DNA from: Clostridium sp. DSM 8431
GTDB lineage: Bacteria; Bacillota; Clostridia; Clostridiales; Clostridiaceae
Reading direction: 5' to 3'
Length of the DNA: 37,569 nucleotides
Assembly (NCBI RefSeq): GCF_900116755.1
Contig: NZ_FPBY01000009.1
Coordinates: 1-37,569 of the forward strand
The position numbers and the translations under genes are program-made. Positions 2,873 to 35,564 of the stretch are shown one piece after another (position 1 is the stretch's first letter; every line of letters starts with the position of its first letter). The notes under the pieces were generated by a model. That model was not told the DNA's origin, did not search any database, and saw only the letters and a program-made list of their open reading frames with translations.

Positions 2873-3739
2873 TTATTCAAAAATTATTGTAACCCATTCA
2901 GCACTTTGATGTTTTTCAATCATTTTGAATCCATAGCTTTCTATCATTTCACGAACCTTTTCAAAGCTCCATTCAACAATACCAGAAACTAAAAGCTTTC
3001 CATCTTCTTTTATATGCTCTTTAATAAAGTCCATAAACATATGAGTTTCTTCACCACCAATGTTTATGTATATCCAGTCAAATTTACCTTCTATATTAAC
3101 TTCACCTGTAAGAGCATCTCCAACTAAAGGTTTTATATTAGTTAAATTATTAAGAGCTGCATTAAATTCAACTTCGTCCTTAATATCTCTTATATCAAGG
3201 GCAACAACTTCACTAGCATTTTTCATAGCAGTTGCAAGAGATAGTATACCAGAACCAGTGCCAATATCTAAAACTCTTTTTCCTGTAAAGTCTTTATCTA
3301 AAATAACTCTTAAAAGATCTTGAGTTGTTTCATGAAGACCTGTTCCAAAAGCACCTTGTGATATAAAGTTAATCTTCTTTTTGTCTTCAAATTCTTCAGT
3401 AGGAGAGGCAATAACCCATTCATCATTAATATGTATTGCTGGCATTGAGAAATCTTCATATGTATCTGCTTCTTCATGAACATCAAAAGGTTTTTGCCCT
3501 AATATTTCATTTACTCTAGTCATGAAAATTTCTAAATCTTCTAGATCCTCATCTTGGCTTTGGAAAGCAACCTTTAAAGTTACTTCTTGAGTATCAACTT
3601 CTTCGTATCCATAACCATTTTCATCTGTTGTAATCTTTAAAAGACTTTCATAGAAAACATCATAGATATCATTTATTTGAAGTTTTTCAACATATTCATC
3701 CACCTTATCAAATGGCACATTATAGCTAATTATAAACAT
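2873..3739 (-). CDS. PrmA-like ribosomal protein L11 methyltransferase family protein
   Basis: A 288-aa SAM-dependent methyltransferase starts at ATG 3739 with GAAAGGAG upstream. The N-terminal 100 residues resemble the small substrate-recognition domain of PrmA. Then come the PrmA signature AFGTGLHETT (130-139), the SAM-binding loop DIGTGSG (158-164) and LLVSGI near the C-terminus. Canonical PrmA trimethylates ribosomal protein L11. This protein is somewhat shorter than most PrmA proteins and departs from the usual DPGxAFGTG and DxGCGSG forms. The gene stands alone, whereas clostridial prmA is often next to dnaJ and rsmE. It may be a second, diverged PrmA with another substrate. Confidence 0.75.
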   Translation of the reverse strand: MFIISYNVPFDKVDEYVEKLQINDIYDVFYESLLKITTDENGYGYEEVDTQEVTLKVAFQSQDEDLEDLEIFMTRVNEILGQKPFDVHEEADTYEDFSMPAIHINDEWVIASPTEEFEDKKKINFISQGAFGTGLHETTQDLLRVILDKDFTGKRVLDIGTGSGILSLATAMKNASEVVALDIRDIKDEVEFNAALNNLTNIKPLVGDALTGEVNIEGKFDWIYINIGGEETHMFMDFIKEHIKEDGKLLVSGIVEWSFEKVREMIESYGFKMIEKHQSAEWVTIIFE

Positions 3740-3875
3740 AAAAGTTTACTCCTTTCAAAATAGACTAATAACATATTATTATAACTTTTAAACTATGTAA
3801 AGCTATGGTGGTTTATTTACAAAAATATACTTGTGAGTTATGATTAAATTAGTATACAGGAAAGGATGAGGTATT

Positions 3876-4835
3876 TTGAAGAAAATAGTTATTTTAGACG
3901 GAAAAACATTAGGGAATGTTGATTATAAAAAACTAGAGGAATTTGGACAAATAGATTATTATGATACAACAAAAGCCGAAGATGTAGAGGAAAGAATTAA
4001 AGATGCTTCAATAATTCTTACAAATAAAGTTGTATTAAATGAAGATAATTTAAAAGATGCTGAAAAACTTGAATTAATATGTGAAACAGCTACAGGTTTC
4101 AATAATATAGACATAGAGTATGCTAAAAAGAGAAATATAGCAGTTACAAATGTAGCAGGATATTCAACACCAACAGTGGCTCAACATACCTTTGCAACAG
4201 CACTTCATTTATATAATAAGATTTCTTATTATGATAATTATGTAAAGAGCGGAGAATATTCTAAGAGTGATATATTTACAAACTTAGATATGCCTTTTAA
4301 TGATTTAGAAGGTAAGACATGGGGCGTTATAGGCCTTGGAAATATAGGAAAGAAAGTAGCAAAAATTGCAGATGCTTTTGGATGTAAAGTTGTTTATTAT
4401 TCTACATCAGGAAGAAATAATAACCCTGATTATGAAAGAGTAGACCTTGAAACTCTTTTAAAAGATTGTGATGTTATTTCAATTCATGCTCCTTTAAATG
4501 AAGCAACTAAAGGGTTATTTAACTACGAAAATCTTTGTAAGATGAAAAAATCAGCTATTCTTATTAATATGGGAAGAGGACCTATTGTAGTTGATAAAGA
4601 CTTAGCAAAGGCTATAGATGAAGAAAAGATAGCAGGAGCAGCTTTAGATGTATTTGAGGTTGAACCTATGAAAGCAGATAATCCATTATTAGTTGTAGAA
4701 AAGAAGGAAAGATTAGTTCTTACACCTCATATAGCATGGGCAAGTGTTGAAGCTAGAAATAGATTATTTAATGATTTAATTGAAAATATAAGAGCCTTTT
4801 ATAGAGGAGAAGAAAAAAATAGAGTTGATAAATAG
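3876..4835 (+). CDS. D-2-hydroxyacid dehydrogenase (glycerate/hydroxypyruvate-reductase-like)
   Basis: A 319-aa NAD(P)-dependent dehydrogenase that interconverts a 2-oxoacid and its D-2-hydroxyacid. The start is TTG at 3876 behind AGGAAAGGATGAGG; no ATG is in a better place. The nucleotide-binding loop is GLGNIG (153-158). The catalytic triad is R234 (in NMGRGP), E263 (in DVFEVEP) and H285 (in LTPHIAW), as in the glycerate dehydrogenase/HprA group. The strand after the loop reads VVYYSTSGR, with no Asp at the usual NADH-discriminating place, so NADPH use is possible. A promoter-like pair (TTGTGA at 3831, TATACA at 3853) lies just upstream. The physiological substrate cannot be fixed from sequence. 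Confidence 0.85.
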   Translation: MKKIVILDGKTLGNVDYKKLEEFGQIDYYDTTKAEDVEERIKDASIILTNKVVLNEDNLKDAEKLELICETATGFNNIDIEYAKKRNIAVTNVAGYSTPTVAQHTFATALHLYNKISYYDNYVKSGEYSKSDIFTNLDMPFNDLEGKTWGVIGLGNIGKKVAKIADAFGCKVVYYSTSGRNNNPDYERVDLETLLKDCDVISIHAPLNEATKGLFNYENLCKMKKSAILINMGRGPIVVDKDLAKAIDEEKIAGAALDVFEVEPMKADNPLLVVEKKERLVLTPHIAWASVEARNRLFNDLIENIRAFYRGEEKNRVDK

Positions 4836-4843
4836 ATACTAAA

Positions 4844-4884
4844 AGAGAGGATTCAAGTTTGATTGTGAATCCTCTCCTCTTTTA
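4844..4884. terminator. terminator after the hydroxyacid dehydrogenase gene
   Basis: GAGAGGATTCA and TGAATCCTCTC form an 11-bp stem, followed by CTCTTTTATA on the plus strand. It sits between convergent genes and may also act on the minus-strand symporter transcript. Confidence 0.85.
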
Positions 4885-4909
4885 TATAGGGTTAAAAGAC
4901 TTAGAAAAC

Positions 4910-6163
4910 TTAGTCAAAAGTATAATATTTTTCTTCGTTAAATTCTTTTTCACTTTTACTTACAATTAAAGTACAAACACAGTCCCCCATAACATTAATT
5001 GTAGTTCTACACATATCTAGAATTCTATCTACACCTAATATGAGTGCAATACCCTCAAGTGGAAGTCCTACTGATTGTAATACCATAGAAAGCATAACCA
5101 TACCAACACCAGGAACTCCAGCAGTACCAATAGAAGCTAAAGTAGCAGTGAATATAATAGTTAAAATTCCACTTACACCAATATCTATTCCATATACTTG
5201 AGAAATGAATATTGAGGCAACACCTTGCATAATTGCTGTACCATCCATATTAATAGTAGCTCCAAGAGGTAAAGTAAATGATCCTATAGAATTACTTACT
5301 CCAGCTTCAGTCATTGTTTCAGTAGTAACTGGAAGAGAAGCGCTACTAGATGAAGTTGAGAAAGTTACAGCAGCTATTTTTGTAAATCTTTTAAAAAATG
5401 GTTTTAGCTTAAGTCTTGTAAATAATTTTAATAATAGACTATATACAAGTGAACCTTGAACAGCAAGAGCTAGTAGAATTGTAAACATATATTTAAGTAA
5501 TGGAAGCATTGCATCAAAGCCTGTTTTTGCAAAAGTTGAAGCAATAAGAGCGAAAACTCCATAAGGTGCACATTCCATAATTAAATCAATAATTTTCATA
5601 CATACATCATTAGTGCTTTGCATGAATTTTTGGAAAGGTTCAGCTTTTTCGCCAATTAAACTCATGGCAGTTCCAAGTAAAAGAGCAAATACTATAATTT
5701 GAAGCATATCACCTTCAACCATAGCTTTAAAAGGATTAGTAGGAATCATAGCTATTAGAATTTCAACAAAACTTTTATTTTCGTTAATTGTAGGTGCTTG
5801 AGTTACTACGCTAGACATATCAAGTCCGTTACCTGGACGTATAACTAAAGCAAGTAAAATAGAAATGGTTATAGCAGCAGCTGTTGTGAATAGATAAAAT
5901 ATAATAGTTTTTCCACCAATACGGCCAATCTTTTTAATATCTCCTAAAGAAGATGAACCACAAGCAAGTGAAGTTAGTACTAAAGGTACTACAAGCATTT
6001 TTATAGCATTTAGAAAGGAATCTCCAATAATTTTAAAAATTCCATCTAATAATAGAGTGTTCTTAATAAATTCATTAGATATATTTTGAAGGATAAGCCC
6101 CATTATTGCACCTAGAAAAAGGCCCAATAATATTTTTGATGTTAATGATAGTTTCTTTTTCAT
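4910..6163 (-). CDS. dicarboxylate/amino acid:cation symporter (DAACS family)
   Basis: A 417-aa inner-membrane carrier of the glutamate/aspartate/serine-threonine symporter family, driven by Na+ or H+. It starts at ATG 6163 with AGGGGG upstream. The family landmarks are clear: the serine-rich re-entrant hairpin FSTSSSSASLP, the motif GATINMDGTAIMQG, and a second glycine/alanine-rich re-entrant loop GTAGVPGVGMVML. About eight membrane helices are expected and the length is normal. The substrate (glutamate, aspartate, dicarboxylate or serine) is not resolved. A good sigma-A promoter lies 43 bases upstream of the start. Confidence 0.9.
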   Translation of the reverse strand: MKKKLSLTSKILLGLFLGAIMGLILQNISNEFIKNTLLLDGIFKIIGDSFLNAIKMLVVPLVLTSLACGSSSLGDIKKIGRIGGKTIIFYLFTTAAAITISILLALVIRPGNGLDMSSVVTQAPTINENKSFVEILIAMIPTNPFKAMVEGDMLQIIVFALLLGTAMSLIGEKAEPFQKFMQSTNDVCMKIIDLIMECAPYGVFALIASTFAKTGFDAMLPLLKYMFTILLALAVQGSLVYSLLLKLFTRLKLKPFFKRFTKIAAVTFSTSSSSASLPVTTETMTEAGVSNSIGSFTLPLGATINMDGTAIMQGVASIFISQVYGIDIGVSGILTIIFTATLASIGTAGVPGVGMVMLSMVLQSVGLPLEGIALILGVDRILDMCRTTINVMGDCVCTLIVSKSEKEFNEEKYYTFD

Positions 6164-6482: not shown

Positions 6483-6716
6483 TAAGTTAATAATGATAAA
6501 AGCAAGGAATGAGAGTAGTAAAAAGCAGAGTCCTTAAAGAGAGTAAAGCGTTTGGTGAAAGTTTGCAGGAAAATCACTTTTGAACTCGCTCATGAGTTAT
6601 AAGGCTGAAAAAATAGTAAGCTTTATCGGTTTTGAAACCGTTATTTTAATTAAGTAAATTAATTGGATGGTACCGCGTAATTGCTCCAAGACTGGGGTTA
6701 TTGCGCTTTTTTTTAA
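6483..6716 (+). promoter_or_regulatory. T-box leader, leucine specifier (CTC), controlling leuA
   Basis: This 5' leader reads the charging state of a tRNA. Stem I contains the expected purine-rich AGTA-type motifs (near 6511) and a specifier loop GAACTCGC in which CTC (6585-6587) is a leucine codon. The T-box TGGTACCGCG (6668-6677) supplies the TGGT that pairs with the uncharged tRNA acceptor end. A terminator hairpin (GCGTAATTGCTCC with GGGGTTATTGCGC, then eight T, to about 6715) competes with the antiterminator. Uncharged tRNA-Leu would permit read-through into leuA, so the gene should be induced by leucine starvation. Confidence 0.92.
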
Positions 6717-10311: not shown

Positions 10312-10575
10312 TATAATCGAATAGTGTCTGGTTGAAGACAATGGGAGAGAAACATTAAATTGTTCACCGAAGAAGTAAATCTTTCAGGTAAATGAACCGT
10401 TGTTGGACAGACCTCTGGAGAGACTTTGATAAGCAAAGCACCGAAGGAGCAAGACAGTGATTTTTTAATAAAATTGCCGTTCAAACTCTCAGGTAAAAGG
10501 ACAGGGGGATATAATAATTTTTGAATTATTCATTTAATTCAAAGGTTATTTTTGGTTTATCTCCCAGTCAATAAC
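10312..10575 (+). promoter_or_regulatory. tandem glycine riboswitch with expression platform
   Basis: Two gcvT-type glycine aptamers stand in tandem. The first has GGGAGAGAAAC (about 10343), CACCGAAGAAG, TTTCAGGTAAA and GGACAGACCTCTGGAGAG. The second has GGAGAGAC (about 10418), GCACCGAAGGAGCAAG, ACTCTCAGGTAAAAGGACAGGGGG (in two parts, ending about 10509). GACAGGGGGATA near 10500 can also pair with TATCTCCCAGTC near 10560, which gives a plausible switching stem before the AGCS Shine-Dalgarno site. Glycine-sensing control of the downstream symporter is well supported; whether glycine turns it on or off cannot be read from the sequence. Confidence 0.93.
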
Positions 10576-30927: not shown

Positions 30928-31665
30928 ATGTCAGGACACTCAAAATGGCATAACATACAAGCAAAAAAGGGTAAAGCTGATGCTAAAAGAGGTAAAATAT
31001 TCACAAGAATAGGTAAAGAATTAGCTATAGCTATAAAAGAAGGTGGAGCTAACCCAGACAATAATGCTAAACTTAGAGACGTTATAGCAAAAGCAAAGGC
31101 AGCAAACATGCCTAATGACAATATTAATAGAGCGCTTAAAAAAGCTGAAGGAGATATGAATTCAGTAAACTACGAAACAATTGTATATGAAGGTTATGGC
31201 CCAAGTGGAGTAGCTGTAATTGTTGAAACTCTTACTGATAATAGAAATAGATCTGTAGCTAACGTAAGAAATGCTTTCACTAAAGGTGGCGGAAACATGG
31301 GTAACTCAGGTTGCGTAAGTTTCATGTTCCAAGAAAAAGGTGAAATCATAATAGAAAAAGAAGATCAAGACGAAGATGAAATGATGATGATGGCTCTTGA
31401 TGCAGGTGCAGAAGACTTTGCTTCAGAAGATGAAGTATTTGTTGTAACAACTGCTCCAGAAGATTTCAGTGCTGTAAGAGAAGCTTTAGAAGCTAACGGA
31501 ATCAAGTTCTTAGAAGCTGAAGTTAAGCAAGTTCCAGATACATATACAGCAATCGACGAAGATGCAGCTAAGAAGATGCAAAAGATGTTAGACTTACTTG
31601 ATGATGATGATGACGTTCAAGCAGTTTACCACAATGCTGAATTCCCTGAAGGATGGGAAGAATAG
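30928..31665 (+). CDS. yebC: YebC/PmpR-family transcription/translation factor
   Basis: A 245-aa cytosolic protein starting at ATG 30928 behind ATAGGAGGAA. The head [19 protein letters not shown] and [18 protein letters not shown] is diagnostic. Acidic stretches ([16 protein letters not shown]) and the end [13 protein letters not shown] are typical. Family members act as DNA-binding regulators or relieve ribosome stalling at proline runs. The gene is complete and is the last clear core gene before the mobile element. Confidence 0.95.
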
Positions 31666-31817: not shown

Positions 31818-31884
31818 ACACCTCCTTGATTACGATATATGTTAGTTAATACTAGCGTGTACGTAATTGAGGAGGTGTTTTTTT
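31818..31884 (+). promoter_or_regulatory. nested hairpin covering the integrase ribosome-binding site
   Basis: ACACCTCCTTGATTACG (31818-31834) pairs over all 17 positions (two G-U) with CGTAATTGAGGAGGTGT (31862-31878). The loop holds a second perfect hairpin, GTTAGT-TAAT-ACTAGC (31841-31856). The 3' arm contains the integrase Shine-Dalgarno site GAGGAGGTG and runs into eight T that include the start codon TTG. It can act as a terminator for yebC read-through, as a translational block on the integrase, or as the integrase's own core site. Confidence 0.75.
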
Positions 31885-32791
31885 GTTATCTAAAGACGTA
31901 CTTAGAGAATATATATATGACATTACTATTCGTAATTACACAGCTAGAACAATCAAAGGATATAGAAATAATATAGCAAGGTTCTTAAAGTATTGTGAGG
32001 CTGAATATGGCATTGTTGAGCTAGAAGAAATAAGTCATTTACATATTAAAAAGTATCTAACTTCCCTTAAAGATAGAGACCTAAGTCCAACTTATATAAA
32101 TACAATATTAAAGAATATCCGTAGCTTTTTTAATTACTGTTATAAAGAGGGATACTGTATTAATATTGCTAAAAAGGTTTCTTGGCTTAAAGAGGATAAG
32201 ACAGTTATTAAGACTTTTACTGATCTTGAAGTTAAAAGAATGATAGAAGTATATAAAATGGATAGCTACATAAATGCTAGGAATAGGTGTATTATGGCTG
32301 TTTTATTTGATACAGGAGTTAGAAACGCTGAGCTTTGCAATATAAAAAGAATGGACGTAAGAGAGACAGTCATTTATATCATGGGAAAGGGAAGAAAAGA
32401 GAGAGTTGTTCCTATATCACCGTATTTGAAAAAGATAATGATTAAATATGAAAGAATTAGGGAGGCTTATCTTAGGGATAATATTCTTCATTATGATAAT
32501 TACTTTCTTAGTTATAGAAATAAGCCATTAACAGGTGAGGCTATAGAGAGAGTGGTAAAGATAGCAGGAGAAAAGGCAAAGGTTAATGAGTCAATAAGAA
32601 TTAGTCCTCATACTTGTAGACATTATTTTGCACAGTCACAGCTTAGAAATGGACTAGATATATATTCATTAAGTAGATTACTAGGGCATGATAGCGTAAT
32701 TATTACTAAACGTTATTTACAAGGATTAAAGGATAAACAAGTGGTAGAGCTTGGAGTAAAGACAAGTCCTTTAATGAATTTAAAAGTATAA
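31883..32791 (+). CDS. tyrosine recombinase/integrase
   Basis: A 302-aa site-specific recombinase; TTG 31883 is used because GAGGAGGTG lies six bases upstream. Residues about 5-95 are the SAM-like core-binding domain (TARTIKGYRNNIARFLKYC). The catalytic set is complete: R147 (TGVRNAEL), K169 (GKGRKER), H243-x-x-R246 (HTCRHYF), H269 (LLGHDS) and nucleophile Y278 (TKRYLQ). There is no N-terminal arm-binding domain, so it is XerC/D-sized. It should move the element in or out of its attachment site. No excisionase is recognised. Confidence 0.92.
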   Translation: MLSKDVLREYIYDITIRNYTARTIKGYRNNIARFLKYCEAEYGIVELEEISHLHIKKYLTSLKDRDLSPTYINTILKNIRSFFNYCYKEGYCINIAKKVSWLKEDKTVIKTFTDLEVKRMIEVYKMDSYINARNRCIMAVLFDTGVRNAELCNIKRMDVRETVIYIMGKGRKERVVPISPYLKKIMIKYERIREAYLRDNILHYDNYFLSYRNKPLTGEAIERVVKIAGEKAKVNESIRISPHTCRHYFAQSQLRNGLDIYSLSRLLGHDSVIITKRYLQGLKDKQVVELGVKTSPLMNLKV

Positions 32792-32817
32792 AAAAATATA
32801 GCCTTATTATCCACTCG

Positions 32818-32880
32818 AGATATTAAGTTCCCTCCGACTGGACTGATACCCTAGATATTAAATACCCTCAGGCTGTCAGG
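32818..32880 (+). repeat. two imperfect direct repeats, 35-bp period
   Basis: AGATATTAAGTTCCCTC starts at 32818 and AGATATTAAATACCCTC-like sequence starts at 32853, each followed by a related GACTGG/GGCTGT segment. They lie just after the integrase gene and could be recombinase or regulator sites. Confidence 0.45.
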
Positions 32881-32901
32881 TAGGTTATAAAGAATAAAGA
32901 A

Positions 32902-32924
32902 AAAGGAGCTACGCCAATAGCTCC
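32902..32924 (-). terminator. hairpin with minus-strand T-run
   Basis: GGAGCTA (32905-32911) pairs with TAGCTCC (32918-32924); on the minus strand TTTTTCTTT follows. It would stop transcription coming leftward, or simply be the integrase end hairpin on the plus strand, where no T-run exists. Confidence 0.5.
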
Positions 32925-32969
32925 CTACTTAACAATTAAATATTGCTAATAATTCTTTGTGTACCTCAC

Positions 32970-33395
32970 TAGGAGATACCCTTAATCCGTAATTAAATGG
33001 TATCAAAAAAATAGCAGGTATGCAAGGCTTTATTTCCTATACCCTTTTTAGGGGTGGGTTAGTAGTCTTAAGCAACTAGAGCTACTATAAATATGTCTAG
33101 TAGGTGAGCTGTAGCCAATGCAGAAAATACAGCAGGAGTAGGTAAACTGACTTTGCCTATTGCTTTAAGCAGGTTCTAGTGTCTGCTTTATAAATTACTA
33201 GGGGAGGAAGTCTGAACACGAGAGTGTTAGGGGCTACTGTGTTGCTTATGGGCAGACTGTAAGTGTACAAGCAGTAGTTAACAAGTCAGAAAGTCTAAAG
33301 CGATACAATGCGATATACAGAAGATAAAGAGTGTACCTTGTAGAAATGCAGGGGAAACTATATCCTTCGCAATGTGTCCAGCTCAACCAGAAGAA
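32970..33395 (+). ncRNA. candidate large structured non-coding RNA
   Basis: This gene-free block of about 430 bases is near 41% G+C (33121-33360), against about 18% in the 120 bases after 33420. CTAGTA (33097-33102) and TACTAG (33196-33201) close a domain with three consecutive hairpins: GCTGTA/TACAGC (33108, 33128), TAGGTAAA/TTTGCCTA (33139, 33152) and AAGCAG/CTGCTT (33167, 33183). A second domain has AACAC-GAGA-GTGTT with a GNRA loop (33215-33228) inside AGTCTG/CAGACT (33209, 33253), crossed by CTACTG/CAGTAG (33234, 33272), a possible pseudoknot. A third has TGCGATATA with TATAT and CGCA (33309, 33359-33371). GATACC/GGTATC (32975, 32999) and TAGTAG/CTACTA (33060, 33082) lie upstream. No family match can be claimed; ends are approximate. 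Confidence 0.55.
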
Positions 33396-33427
33396 TAGGA
33401 AAAAATGAAAATATATAATAAATATGT

Positions 33428-33433
33428 TATAAT
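33428..33433 (+). promoter_or_regulatory. -10 box of the two-gene cassette
   Basis: TATAAT opens a 17-base string, TATAATATACAAAAAAG (33428-33444), that recurs exactly at 36762-36778 before the YegP-like gene. The -35 (TGAAAA, 16 bases upstream) is poor. Confidence 0.5.
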
Positions 33434-33458
33434 ATACAAAAAAGTATGGAGGTTTTTT

Positions 33459-33845
33459 ATGGAAGATAAATTATTAGAATTAGAAGAAAAATATAATAAA
33501 TTAGAAAAAAAAGTATTACAATTAGAATTTAGACAAGAGCTAATGATGAGTGATACAAATACTAACAGAGTATTACTTGAATATAATATAACAAAAAAAG
33601 AATATGAAAAAATAATGGATATTATGGACAAGTATAGAGGAAGCATAGAAAAAAAACAAAAGGTTAACAATGCTGAATTTGAGCAAGATATTTACAAAGT
33701 GGTATCTGAACATCAAGGTGACTATCATTTTTGCGAGTATATATCTAAGGCATTTATGGACGATGATAGGTGGGAAGAAGTGTTTCCTGCATTGTATGGT
33801 GATATGCCTAAGTATAAATATATAAAGGAGAATAAATTAAAATAA
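33459..33845 (+). CDS. small acidic coiled-coil protein, possibly DUF1878-like
   Basis: A 128-aa protein starting at ATG 33459 behind TATGGAGG; an in-frame upstream ATG at 33405 precedes the promoter. The head is a coiled coil (LLELEEKYNKLEKKVLQLEFRQ in 4-26), followed by helices and the segment DYHFCEYISKAFMDDDRWEEVFPALYGDMP. The order 'LEFxxELM ... ITKKEYEKIMDIMDKY' faintly resembles DUF1878 (YhaI) proteins. The function is unknown. Only two bases separate its stop from the next gene. Confidence 0.6.
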   Translation: MEDKLLELEEKYNKLEKKVLQLEFRQELMMSDTNTNRVLLEYNITKKEYEKIMDIMDKYRGSIEKKQKVNNAEFEQDIYKVVSEHQGDYHFCEYISKAFMDDDRWEEVFPALYGDMPKYKYIKENKLK

Positions 33846-34940: not shown

Positions 34941-35087
34941 TAGTTTAAAAGAAAGTAAAATATAAACTAGTTATCTTTTTAAATATATTCAATATGATAT
35001 GTCACCATTAGGATAGTGTACTGTATTACGCTATGTAAGACAAAATTAATTAAGATCTTAAAATAATGTGTAATGGAGGAACTACGA

Positions 35088-35564
35088 GTGAAGAAAGGGA
35101 AAAGAGATATAAAGGAAACTAAAGTATTAAGCTATACACCAGCTTTTGAGGGTGGAGATTGGACAGGTGAGAACGGAGGATACTTTTCATTACCTAATAG
35201 TACTATAGAGGCTATTGCTATGAAGGGATTAACAGCCTCTGAAATGCTGGTTTATTTATATATGCTTAGAATGGGGTATAATAATGATGGTGAGTTTTAT
35301 CATAGTTATAATAATATGGCTAGAAAATTAAACAGAGGTACTAAGAGTATACAAAATGCAGTAAAGAAATTAGAAGAACTAGGATTAATACAGAAAACTA
35401 AAATAGGAGGTAGTGTATTCGGTCAGCATATTTCTAATGAATATAAAGTTTATCATTTAGTACTAAAAGGCCATGAAGTACCTGCTAGCATAGGAATAGT
35501 GAAGAAAAAGAATAATATATCTGAACAACATGAATGGTGCAATGATTTGGAGTCACTTTTGTAA
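35088..35564 (+). CDS. winged-helix (HTH_36-like) replication or regulatory protein
   Basis: A 158-aa protein. GTG 35088 is chosen because GGAGG lies eight bases upstream; an ATG at 35073 overlaps it. Residues about 35-115 are a winged helix: LTASEMLVYLYMLRMGYNNDGEFYHSYNNMARKLNRG, here split by position as LTASEMLVYLYMLR (49-62) and MARKLNRGTKSIQNAVKKLEELGLI. This is the pattern of HTH_36 domains at the head of plasmid and phage replication initiators (RepA_N-like) and of some DnaD-type proteins. A replication role is inferred from this and from the iterons 240 bases downstream. There is no primase or helicase domain. Confidence 0.6.
   Translation: MKKGKRDIKETKVLSYTPAFEGGDWTGENGGYFSLPNSTIEAIAMKGLTASEMLVYLYMLRMGYNNDGEFYHSYNNMARKLNRGTKSIQNAVKKLEELGLIQKTKIGGSVFGQHISNEYKVYHLVLKGHEVPASIGIVKKKNNISEQHEWCNDLESLL

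Follow-up and report, generated by a model that had tools for sequence, protein, structure and literature searches.

What is encoded by the gene-free, G+C-rich block that follows an integrase gene in Clostridium sp. DSM 8431? We addressed this question in a stretch of 37,569 nucleotides (the window, by which we mean the whole of the DNA analysed), where an original prediction, made from the sequence alone, had placed a large structured RNA inside a mobile element at 32970-33395. That proposal is now strongly supported. The window carries a structured RNA of about 490 nt, on the + strand, at 32905-33394; as a whole the earlier observation is confirmed in part, in that the structured RNA stands, and its limits and a four-way domain drawn within it do not. 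The folded + strand RNA has been kept by selection, on mobile DNA and usually behind an integrase gene. Its family is absent from Rfam 15 and most likely is a kind of large mobile-element RNA related to ARRPOF (RF02933). On balance (a probability of roughly 0.6) we read it as a trans-acting structured non-coding RNA of an integrative mobile element, probably a prophage, that belongs to an ARRPOF-related class and serves upkeep of the element.

Results

The RNA lies downstream of the tyrosine integrase gene of the element (31883-32791, +; Pfam PF00589, E 1.3e-27; phrog_1, E 3.9e-43), the neighbour that had been pointed out, and the integrase gene follows yebC (30928-31665, +; Pfam TACO1/YebC, E 1.3e-64), given here as context only and apparently the host gene at the insertion site. 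The order yebC, integrase, RNA is repeated in loci L048 and L064, where yebC was recognised from the ORF sequence. The claim that the block is non-coding on both strands holds: across the six frames of 32887-33400 the longest open stretch is 50 codons, and every frame has 10-14 stops. The G+C-rich block and its poor flank are likewise real, with 39.9% G+C at 32970-33395 against 20.6% at 33400-33700 and 29.9% in the whole window. The predicted fold of the + strand was better than those of all 100 dinucleotide shuffles (z -3.05), whereas the - strand was unremarkable (z -1.36; 12 of 100 shuffles equally good). The true start of the RNA is about 65 nt ahead of the interval first proposed, as hairpin P0 (32905-32924) and the 5' strand of helix P1 (32955-32966) fall outside. 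Elsewhere, the host part of the window contains an RNase P RNA (2044-2388), a T-box leader (6496-6691) and a tandem glycine riboswitch (10332-10507), and a replication-initiation-like gene belonging to the element lies at 35073-35564.

The RNA appears to be built of a 5' domain (P0-P5 and pseudoknot PK1), a core (S1/S2, a GNRA hairpin and pseudoknot PK2) and a 3' hairpin between direct repeats. For P1 to P5 of the 5' domain we made a covariance model, R1, from a seed alignment (A1) of 11 of 13 extracted sequences, G005 and L038 being omitted as too divergent. R1 scores 188.5 bits on the window (32932-33136, +), which is itself one of the 11 seeds. Covariation among homologues, suggested with the original prediction as a check, was assessed by counts of our own rather than with R-scape, and it establishes the main helices. 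In an alignment (A2) of 68 sequences, aligned by R1 and so fitted to the model structure, 33 of the 34 modelled pairs change on both sides (429 such cells against 128.6 in shuffles), and the share of paired cells is 85.2%, falling to 32-42% when the partners are slid.

Such two-sided changes affect all 12 pairs of P1 (32955-32966 with 33016-33027, +; 68 sequences) and all six of hairpin P2 (GATACC/GGTATC, 32975-33004, +), where 71.7-78.5% of cells are paired and the columns are gapped in 26-34 of the 68 sequences. They were found in five of the six modelled pairs of hairpin P3 (CCTATACCC/GGG..GGG, 33036-33058, +), the upper three pairs of which are paired in only 72% of cells, in five of five modelled pairs of hairpin P4 (TAGTAG/CTACTA, 33060-33087, +; 95.4% paired) and again in five of five of hairpin P5 (GCTGTA/TACAGC, 33108-33133, +), which has the conserved loop GCCAATGCAGAAAA. 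Across relatives, a P5 loop close to GCC(A/G)ATGCA is kept while the stems vary freely. Hairpin P0 (GGAGCTA/TAGCTCC, 32905-32924, +), which stands outside the covariation counts, is terminator-like on the - strand, where the terminator scan returned it at 32926-32903; a fold of -9 kcal/mol or better precedes the 5' domain in 50 of 66 loci.

Since A2 is fitted to the structure, PK1, which is absent from the model, was tested in addition. It joins ACTAGA in the P4 loop (33075-33080, +) to TCTAGT (33096-33101, +), and in a partner-swap test over the 68 sequences strands scored 12.46 with their own partners against 9.53 in 200 swaps (sd 0.26, maximum 10.27). The pairing is rewritten elsewhere as ACTGGA/TCCAGT, ATACAA/TTGTAT and ACCAGAG/TTCTGGT; a PK1 of more than four pairs was not found in some divergent loci, for example L147, L148 and L149. 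The four-way domain, which was to be closed by CTAGTA (33097-33102) with TACTAG (33196-33201), has to be abandoned, because both strands have other, covarying partners: TCTAGT pairs with ACTAGA in PK1, and ACTAG (33197-33201) pairs with CTAGT (33176-33180) in the core. In L096 the equivalents of the two strands that had been joined read TTCTAGTG and ATACG and are non-complementary.

The core comes in two subtypes, A and B, and the window has subtype B. Hairpin P6 (AGGTAAA/TTTGCCT, 33140-33158, +), found by eye and present in the predicted fold, is outside the covariation counts. An H-type pseudoknot is formed by S1 (AAGCAG/CTGCTT, 33167-33188, +) and S2 (CTAGT/ACTAG, 33176-33180 with 33197-33201, +). 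In eight subtype B sequences, picked by eye and aligned by sequence alone (A4), the pairs too being chosen by eye, 97.5% of its cells are paired and seven of its ten pairs show two-sided changes, namely four of the five counted pairs of S1 and three of the five of S2, the latter being 100% paired. In controls the number of two-sided pairs was equalled by 23 of 500 shuffles, that of further pair types by 157 of 500, and the other three measures by none of 500. S1 reads GTCGA/TCGAC in L098 and AGCGA/TCGCT in L183, and S2 reads CAGCT/AGCTG and CAAAT/ATTTG in the same two loci.

Behind GGAGGA, the strand AGTCTG (33209-33214, +) forms PK2 with CAGACT (33253-33258), a strand in the loop of hairpin P9 (CTTA/TAAG, 33245-33263, +). 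Over 45 sequences of both subtypes, PK2 strands scored 13.28 with their own partners against 10.23 in 500 swaps (sd 0.31, maximum 11.13), and S2 strands 11.24 against 9.63 (sd 0.26, maximum 10.42). These 45 were taken from 72 assembled sequences, of which 46 had a GGnGG-like anchor and one (G532) was dropped; nine anchors were set by hand and four reset. Between the PK2 strands lies a hairpin with a GNRA loop, AACAC-GAGA-GTGTT (33215-33228, +), visible in the sequence and, by eye, in L096 and L098, both of which have the GAGA loop on a different stem. Stem P8 (CTACTG, 33234-33239, with CAGTAG, 33272-33277, +) comes from the predicted fold, the covariation count being that of the matching stem in subtype A, where six of six pairs show two-sided changes.

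Subtype A has an H-type pseudoknot, two hairpins, a long stem and PK2. Its alignment (A3; 16 of 17 sequences, G446 being omitted for an insertion) was made from sequence only, with pairs chosen by eye; 94.5% of cells are paired, against 28-44% with slid partners, and 25 of 32 pairs change on both sides, as do six of the seven pairs of PK2. S1 is weakly supported in this subtype, because pair 7-23 mostly fails (unpaired in 10 of 16 sequences) and only one of four S1 pairs shows a two-sided change. The secondary structure as first drawn was thus correct in parts only: the GNRA-capped stem is present, the hunch of a possible pseudoknot has grown to three pseudoknots backed by sequence-only alignments or partner swaps, and the four-way domain is gone.

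The RNA is on the + strand, because G-U pairs exceed A-C pairs (45:5 in A3, 29:2 in chosen columns of A1, 1:0 in A4 and 194:66 in the fitted A2). These counts reject an RNA on the - strand, a reading that had drawn on the P0 terminator and a promoter-like site at the 3' end.

At its 3' end the RNA has a terminal hairpin (CCTTG/CAGGG, 33335-33354, +) and a conserved stretch, ACTATATCC...GTGTCCA... (33357-33394, +), that is seen in relatives and in the match of a core model (R3, below) to the 3' end of L061. By repeat comparison the hairpin lies between two direct copies of CAGAAGA (33318-33324 and 33388-33394, +), and many members have a hairpin between repeats. The window repeat is 7 nt long and is not the best match of the repeat search in the window; in the close relative L032 it extends to 11 nt. 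Other repeats around the terminal hairpin are CAGTCGATTATA, twice in both L096 and L183, CCCGATATTAAC, twice in L038, and CGTTGATTTTA, present in two copies in p40A2, a plasmid of Fusobacterium. The best repeat of this zone, in some cases a chance match or one outside the RNA, had a mean score of 8.99 over 76 sequences, against 6.05 in single-letter shuffles, and the score was at least 10 in 32 sequences against 7 in the shuffles. Eighteen of 20 repeats tested occur exactly twice in the fetched locus, the exceptions being that of L077, one copy of which differs at one end, and the window 7-mer, which is too short to count. The repeats are about 8-14 nt long, identical or nearly so within an element, different between elements, and changed together in close copies: CAGAAGA stands twice in the window, L036 and L032, and CGAAAGA twice in L031, as though the two copies had to agree.

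Two roles for the repeats were tried and rejected. Pairing within the RNA gave no signal (in 42 sequences listed by hand, 13.66 with the own complement and 13.45, sd 0.29, with 300 swaps), and a role as attachment cores does not agree with four elements behind spo0A that carry four different repeats, two of them short.

A BLAST search of 59 related genomes with 32780-33480 gave clear copies in the genome of the window itself (contigs C203 and C260) and in four further genomes of the genus (G019, G002, G004 and G023), as well as a short match in G005 that on reading is a family member. Each of these loci has an integrase-like ORF ahead of the RNA and in the same orientation. The integrase follows spo0A in G002, G004, G023 and G005, and yebC in the window; Pfam Spo0A_C and Phage_integrase confirmed this for one spo0A locus (L034), the other three being recognised from sequence. 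Against phages and plasmids the same search returned short pieces only. R1 reached much further: of 206 genomes searched in the family, 53, belonging to 17 of 46 genera, have a match, with 66 places in all. A search of 225 genomes across the order (E ≤ 0.001) returned the same 53 genomes and added none, and among 249 genomes drawn from the phylum R1 found only the genome of the window.

Integrase genes near R1 matches were called with an HMM of our own (six seeds, E ≤ 1e-5). An integrase ORF precedes the RNA in the same orientation in 51 of the 66 places, with 31-777 nt between its end and the R1 match; three of these 51 ORFs are broken into pieces. The 15 places with no integrase match include loci that follow yebC (G544, G570b) and loci beside other genes, and the RNA occurs with no integrase on two small contigs, one of 5,386 bp with Mob_Pre (G028) and one of 10,354 bp with a relaxase gene (G473). 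Unspecific patterns caught 30 loci on viral contigs, and R1, run on 28 of them (L040 and L053 were left out), gave six clear matches, two at E 0.8 and 20 without a match. All six clear members (L038, L039, L161, L180, L182 and L183) have an integrase upstream; they are not all independent, since the sequence of L161 is that of genome locus L114.

A 21-mer from P3, TTTATTTCCTATACCCTTTTT, was tried as a family marker. It occurs in eight places in genome contigs, four in the RNA and four not; being only part of P3, it was replaced by R1. Outside the family it is found downstream of two transposase genes of the IS110 family (Pfam DEDD_Tnp_IS110), at a distance of about 40-55 nt, and of an integrase gene, at about 540 nt (sites L041:5083-5103, L043:4225-4245 and L047:1145-1165), either by chance or as a shared element end.

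Several loci have further features of their own. Contigs C203 and C260 (L031 and L032) each carry a subtype A copy whose 5'-domain match is followed, after 1.1-1.7 kb with ORFs (one of them DUF4879 in L031), by a further copy of the RNA that consists of the core only and shares 88-94% identity with the window. One genome (G542) holds four copies (L111, L112, L113 and L122), of which L111 appears to have no core between P5 and the 3' end. In the prophage-like element behind spo0A of L034, seven 35-nt repeats spaced by 64-66 nt (3594-5598), five of them matched by Rfam CRISPR-DR3, adjoin an oppositely oriented gene for a Cas12f/Cas12U3-like effector (PADLOC Cas12u3, E 5.8e-131); this small CRISPR array and the effector sit a few hundred bases from the RNA. 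The Rfam Gut-1 RNA matches twice per locus, ahead of the integrase region or where it begins, in L032 (4791-5047) and L036 (394-650; one of this pair is below the gathering score), perhaps marking the insertion site of these elements. Many loci have an ORF of about 60-91 codons between integrase and RNA, such as L063:2909-3151 (-), which had no Pfam match, and in L033 a LAGLIDADG-like homing-endonuclease gene (3708-4697) is directly behind the RNA.

At gathering scores no Rfam family matched the window RNA, and a permissive scan (E up to 5) returned only weak matches of RatA, L20_leader and MIR159, all covering the P0 hairpin. RF02933, with a gathering score of 127.2 bits, gave no match on the window at E up to 5, and the window RNA is not a member of RF02933 as Rfam defines it. 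In other genomes, RF02933 at E ≤ 0.01 found seven places in six of 68 genomes of the genus and none in 14 control genomes, with 23.3-26.7 bits (26.7 on L037), all under the gathering score. On reading, all seven are members of our family, three already known and four new. Two of the new places (L063, L064) have an integrase and the 5' domain; L062 is an isolated core that trails an R1 match of its genome by about 1.5 kb; L061 consists of P5 and core on a 3,926-bp contig, where the ORF adjoining the RNA, a candidate rep gene, had no Pfam match.

The reverse comparison used R2, a model of Clostridium-family cores only, with no Fusobacterium sequence. Run with filters off against two Fusobacterium plasmids, pKH9 and p40A2, it scores best at the ARRPOF locus of pKH9 (18.2 bits, E 0.008). 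Default filters gave no match in either plasmid, and for p40A2 the test is not a fair one, as the RNA there spans the start of the record. R2 had no match on the window core (best 11.1 bits, in the wrong place). R3, a model of the window core and its relatives of the same subtype, finds other family loci, among them L139 (E 3.5e-42), L138, L126 and L146; at the ARRPOF place of the two plasmids it finds nothing. It does match the 3' end of L061 (23.3 bits, E 4.3e-5), which is of the other subtype and is also an RF02933 place. R1 found no 5' domain in either plasmid at E up to 10, and the Rfam ARRPOF consensus had no match in phages. The family and ARRPOF have in common a pseudoknot plan of S1/S2 followed by GGnGG and PK2, PK2 being seen by eye in the Rfam consensus.

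The kinship of the wider Clostridium family with ARRPOF is therefore fairly well supported by sequence comparison. The tie of the window core is indirect, because RF02933 and R2 miss the window core and R3 misses the Fusobacterium plasmids; it would run through intermediates, namely the shared 5' domain, the pseudoknot plan and L061 as a bridge.

Discussion

The RNA would represent, within the Clostridium family, a branch of a class to which ARRPOF of Fusobacterium plasmids also belongs. By analogy with large RNAs studied by cryo-EM, it may fold into a rigid, perhaps self-associating particle; ARRPOF is described as a ring-like homodimer, and ROOL and GOLLD as cages, in PMC12641628 and PMC12286853. 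What such a particle would serve is the upkeep of the element, through its replication, its copy control or its survival in the host, rather than the metabolism of the host, and the 3' repeats would be the part that recognises an element-specific partner. We favour a self-assembling RNA that helps the element persist. A point against this reading is the finding reported in PMC11837546 that an oriFN-repA fragment, which may or may not include ARRPOF, is enough by itself for a Fusobacterium vector to replicate. It would act in trans and for the element, because it is found also on mobilisation-gene contigs with no integrase match, and because ARRPOF adjoins rep.

The RNA might instead be no separate molecule and act in cis within the integrase mRNA, as a 3' untranslated region or an attenuator that controls the amount of integrase or the stability of the message. 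The same-strand integrase ORF that ends before the RNA in 51 of 66 places, within 100 nt of the R1 match in 20 and within 500 nt in 48, is what such an arrangement would look like, and no + strand sigma-70-like promoter was found in 32700-33400, so the RNA could be the tail of the integrase mRNA. We nevertheless hold this to be doubtful, given the 15 places with no upstream integrase match, mobilisation-gene contigs among them, the further ORF of about 60-91 codons that separates integrase and RNA in many loci, and the rep gene that takes the place of the integrase in the two Fusobacterium ARRPOF plasmids.

It is unlikely that the RNA primes replication or controls copy number as ColE1 RNAII does, with a - strand antisense RNA ending at the P0 hairpin. 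The terminator-like hairpin at the 5' border would suit such a role: a - strand run of at least four T is present there in 58 of 66 loci, in 47 together with a stable fold. Relatives are found on plasmids beside rep, and the very name ARRPOF, as given in PMC12641628, stands for an area required for replication. Against this, the - strand promoter-like site at 33386-33357 (9/12) is within what shuffles produce (3 sites found, 2.3 expected), most members are on integrated elements, and the element of the window has its own replication-initiation-like gene (35073-35564).

For the repeats, the lack of an internal partner beyond chance and of a tie to the integration site suggests a tag for something outside the RNA. 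One speculative extension of the trans-acting reading, which we rate as a long shot, is that the RNA carries an address, an element-specific duplicated tag that recognises an outside DNA, RNA or protein for self-recognition. If true, this self-recognition could take the form of incompatibility, copy control or integrase control.

Membership in GOLLD or ROOL is very improbable. The original prediction had been reminded of these RNAs, and the likeness in kind is fair, the window RNA being large, pseudoknotted and on a mobile element, as are those described in PMC12286853; a single tRNA gene was also found in 3 of 16 loci of relatives. The models of GOLLD, ROOL, OLE, raiA, HEARO and introns had no match in the window stretch at E up to 5, nor in relatives (seven loci at E up to 1, 16 loci at E up to 0.5). 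The family that does match, weakly, is ARRPOF, in the observed cases on relatives with the other core subtype, and no tRNA gene was found in the window. Equally hard to credit is a catalytic intron-like RNA (a remnant of a group I or group II intron or an IStron), which the second core copies on C203 and C260, with ORFs between as in an intron with an inner ORF, might bring to mind: the first copies there are complete, so the second is a core duplicate and not the other half, no intron model matched, and to our knowledge the fold leaves no room for the catalytic helices of group I or II introns.

Returning to the trans-acting element RNA, its interest lies in the company it keeps. Large RNAs of phages and plasmids are elaborately folded and mostly without known function, and the present family ties such an RNA to a fixed genetic neighbour and a variable repeat pair, which make its function testable in ordinary Clostridium strains. 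Among the matches listed in literature searches (integrase-associated Clostridium RNAs, papers citing a survey of 224 RNAs, and RNA cages), given as titles and the starts of abstracts of mostly open-access papers, the Clostridium-family RNA was not found.

OLE, raiA and HEARO are also bacterial RNAs that are large or conserved, some of them near mobile genes; they differ from the window RNA in that their models do not match it in Rfam scans. ROOL and GOLLD, large pseudoknotted RNAs of prophages and phages that form homo-oligomeric cages, resemble it in size class, pseudoknots and placement in phage-like elements; by the examples of 659 nt and 800 nt in PMC12286853 they are longer, and the window RNA adjoins an integrase gene, not a tRNA island. 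The resemblance to ARRPOF goes further. PK2 reads AGTCTG/CAGACT in the window, GCTCTG/CAGGGC in pKH9 and ACTCTG/CAGAGT in p40A2. Both RNAs are on mobile DNA behind a DNA-handling gene, which is the integrase gene for the window RNA and, in pKH9 and p40A2, a Rep gene (Pfam REP_ORF2-G2P). In p40A2 the terminal hairpin is flanked by an 11-nt direct repeat, and in pKH9, where the search returned another repeat, a pair of CGACCAT is visible by eye around the hairpin. The two RNAs differ in host and type of element, in the additional 5' domain of about 230 nt (P0-P5 and PK1) of the window RNA, absent by R1 from both plasmids, and in its core, whose subtype has diverged too far for RF02933 or R2 to detect. 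ARRPOF of the Fusobacterium plasmids thus looks like the nearest, if distant, named relative of the window RNA, and is itself likely to be the outlier of a far wider class, present in 53 of 206 genomes of the family and behind an integrase gene in 51 of 66 places.
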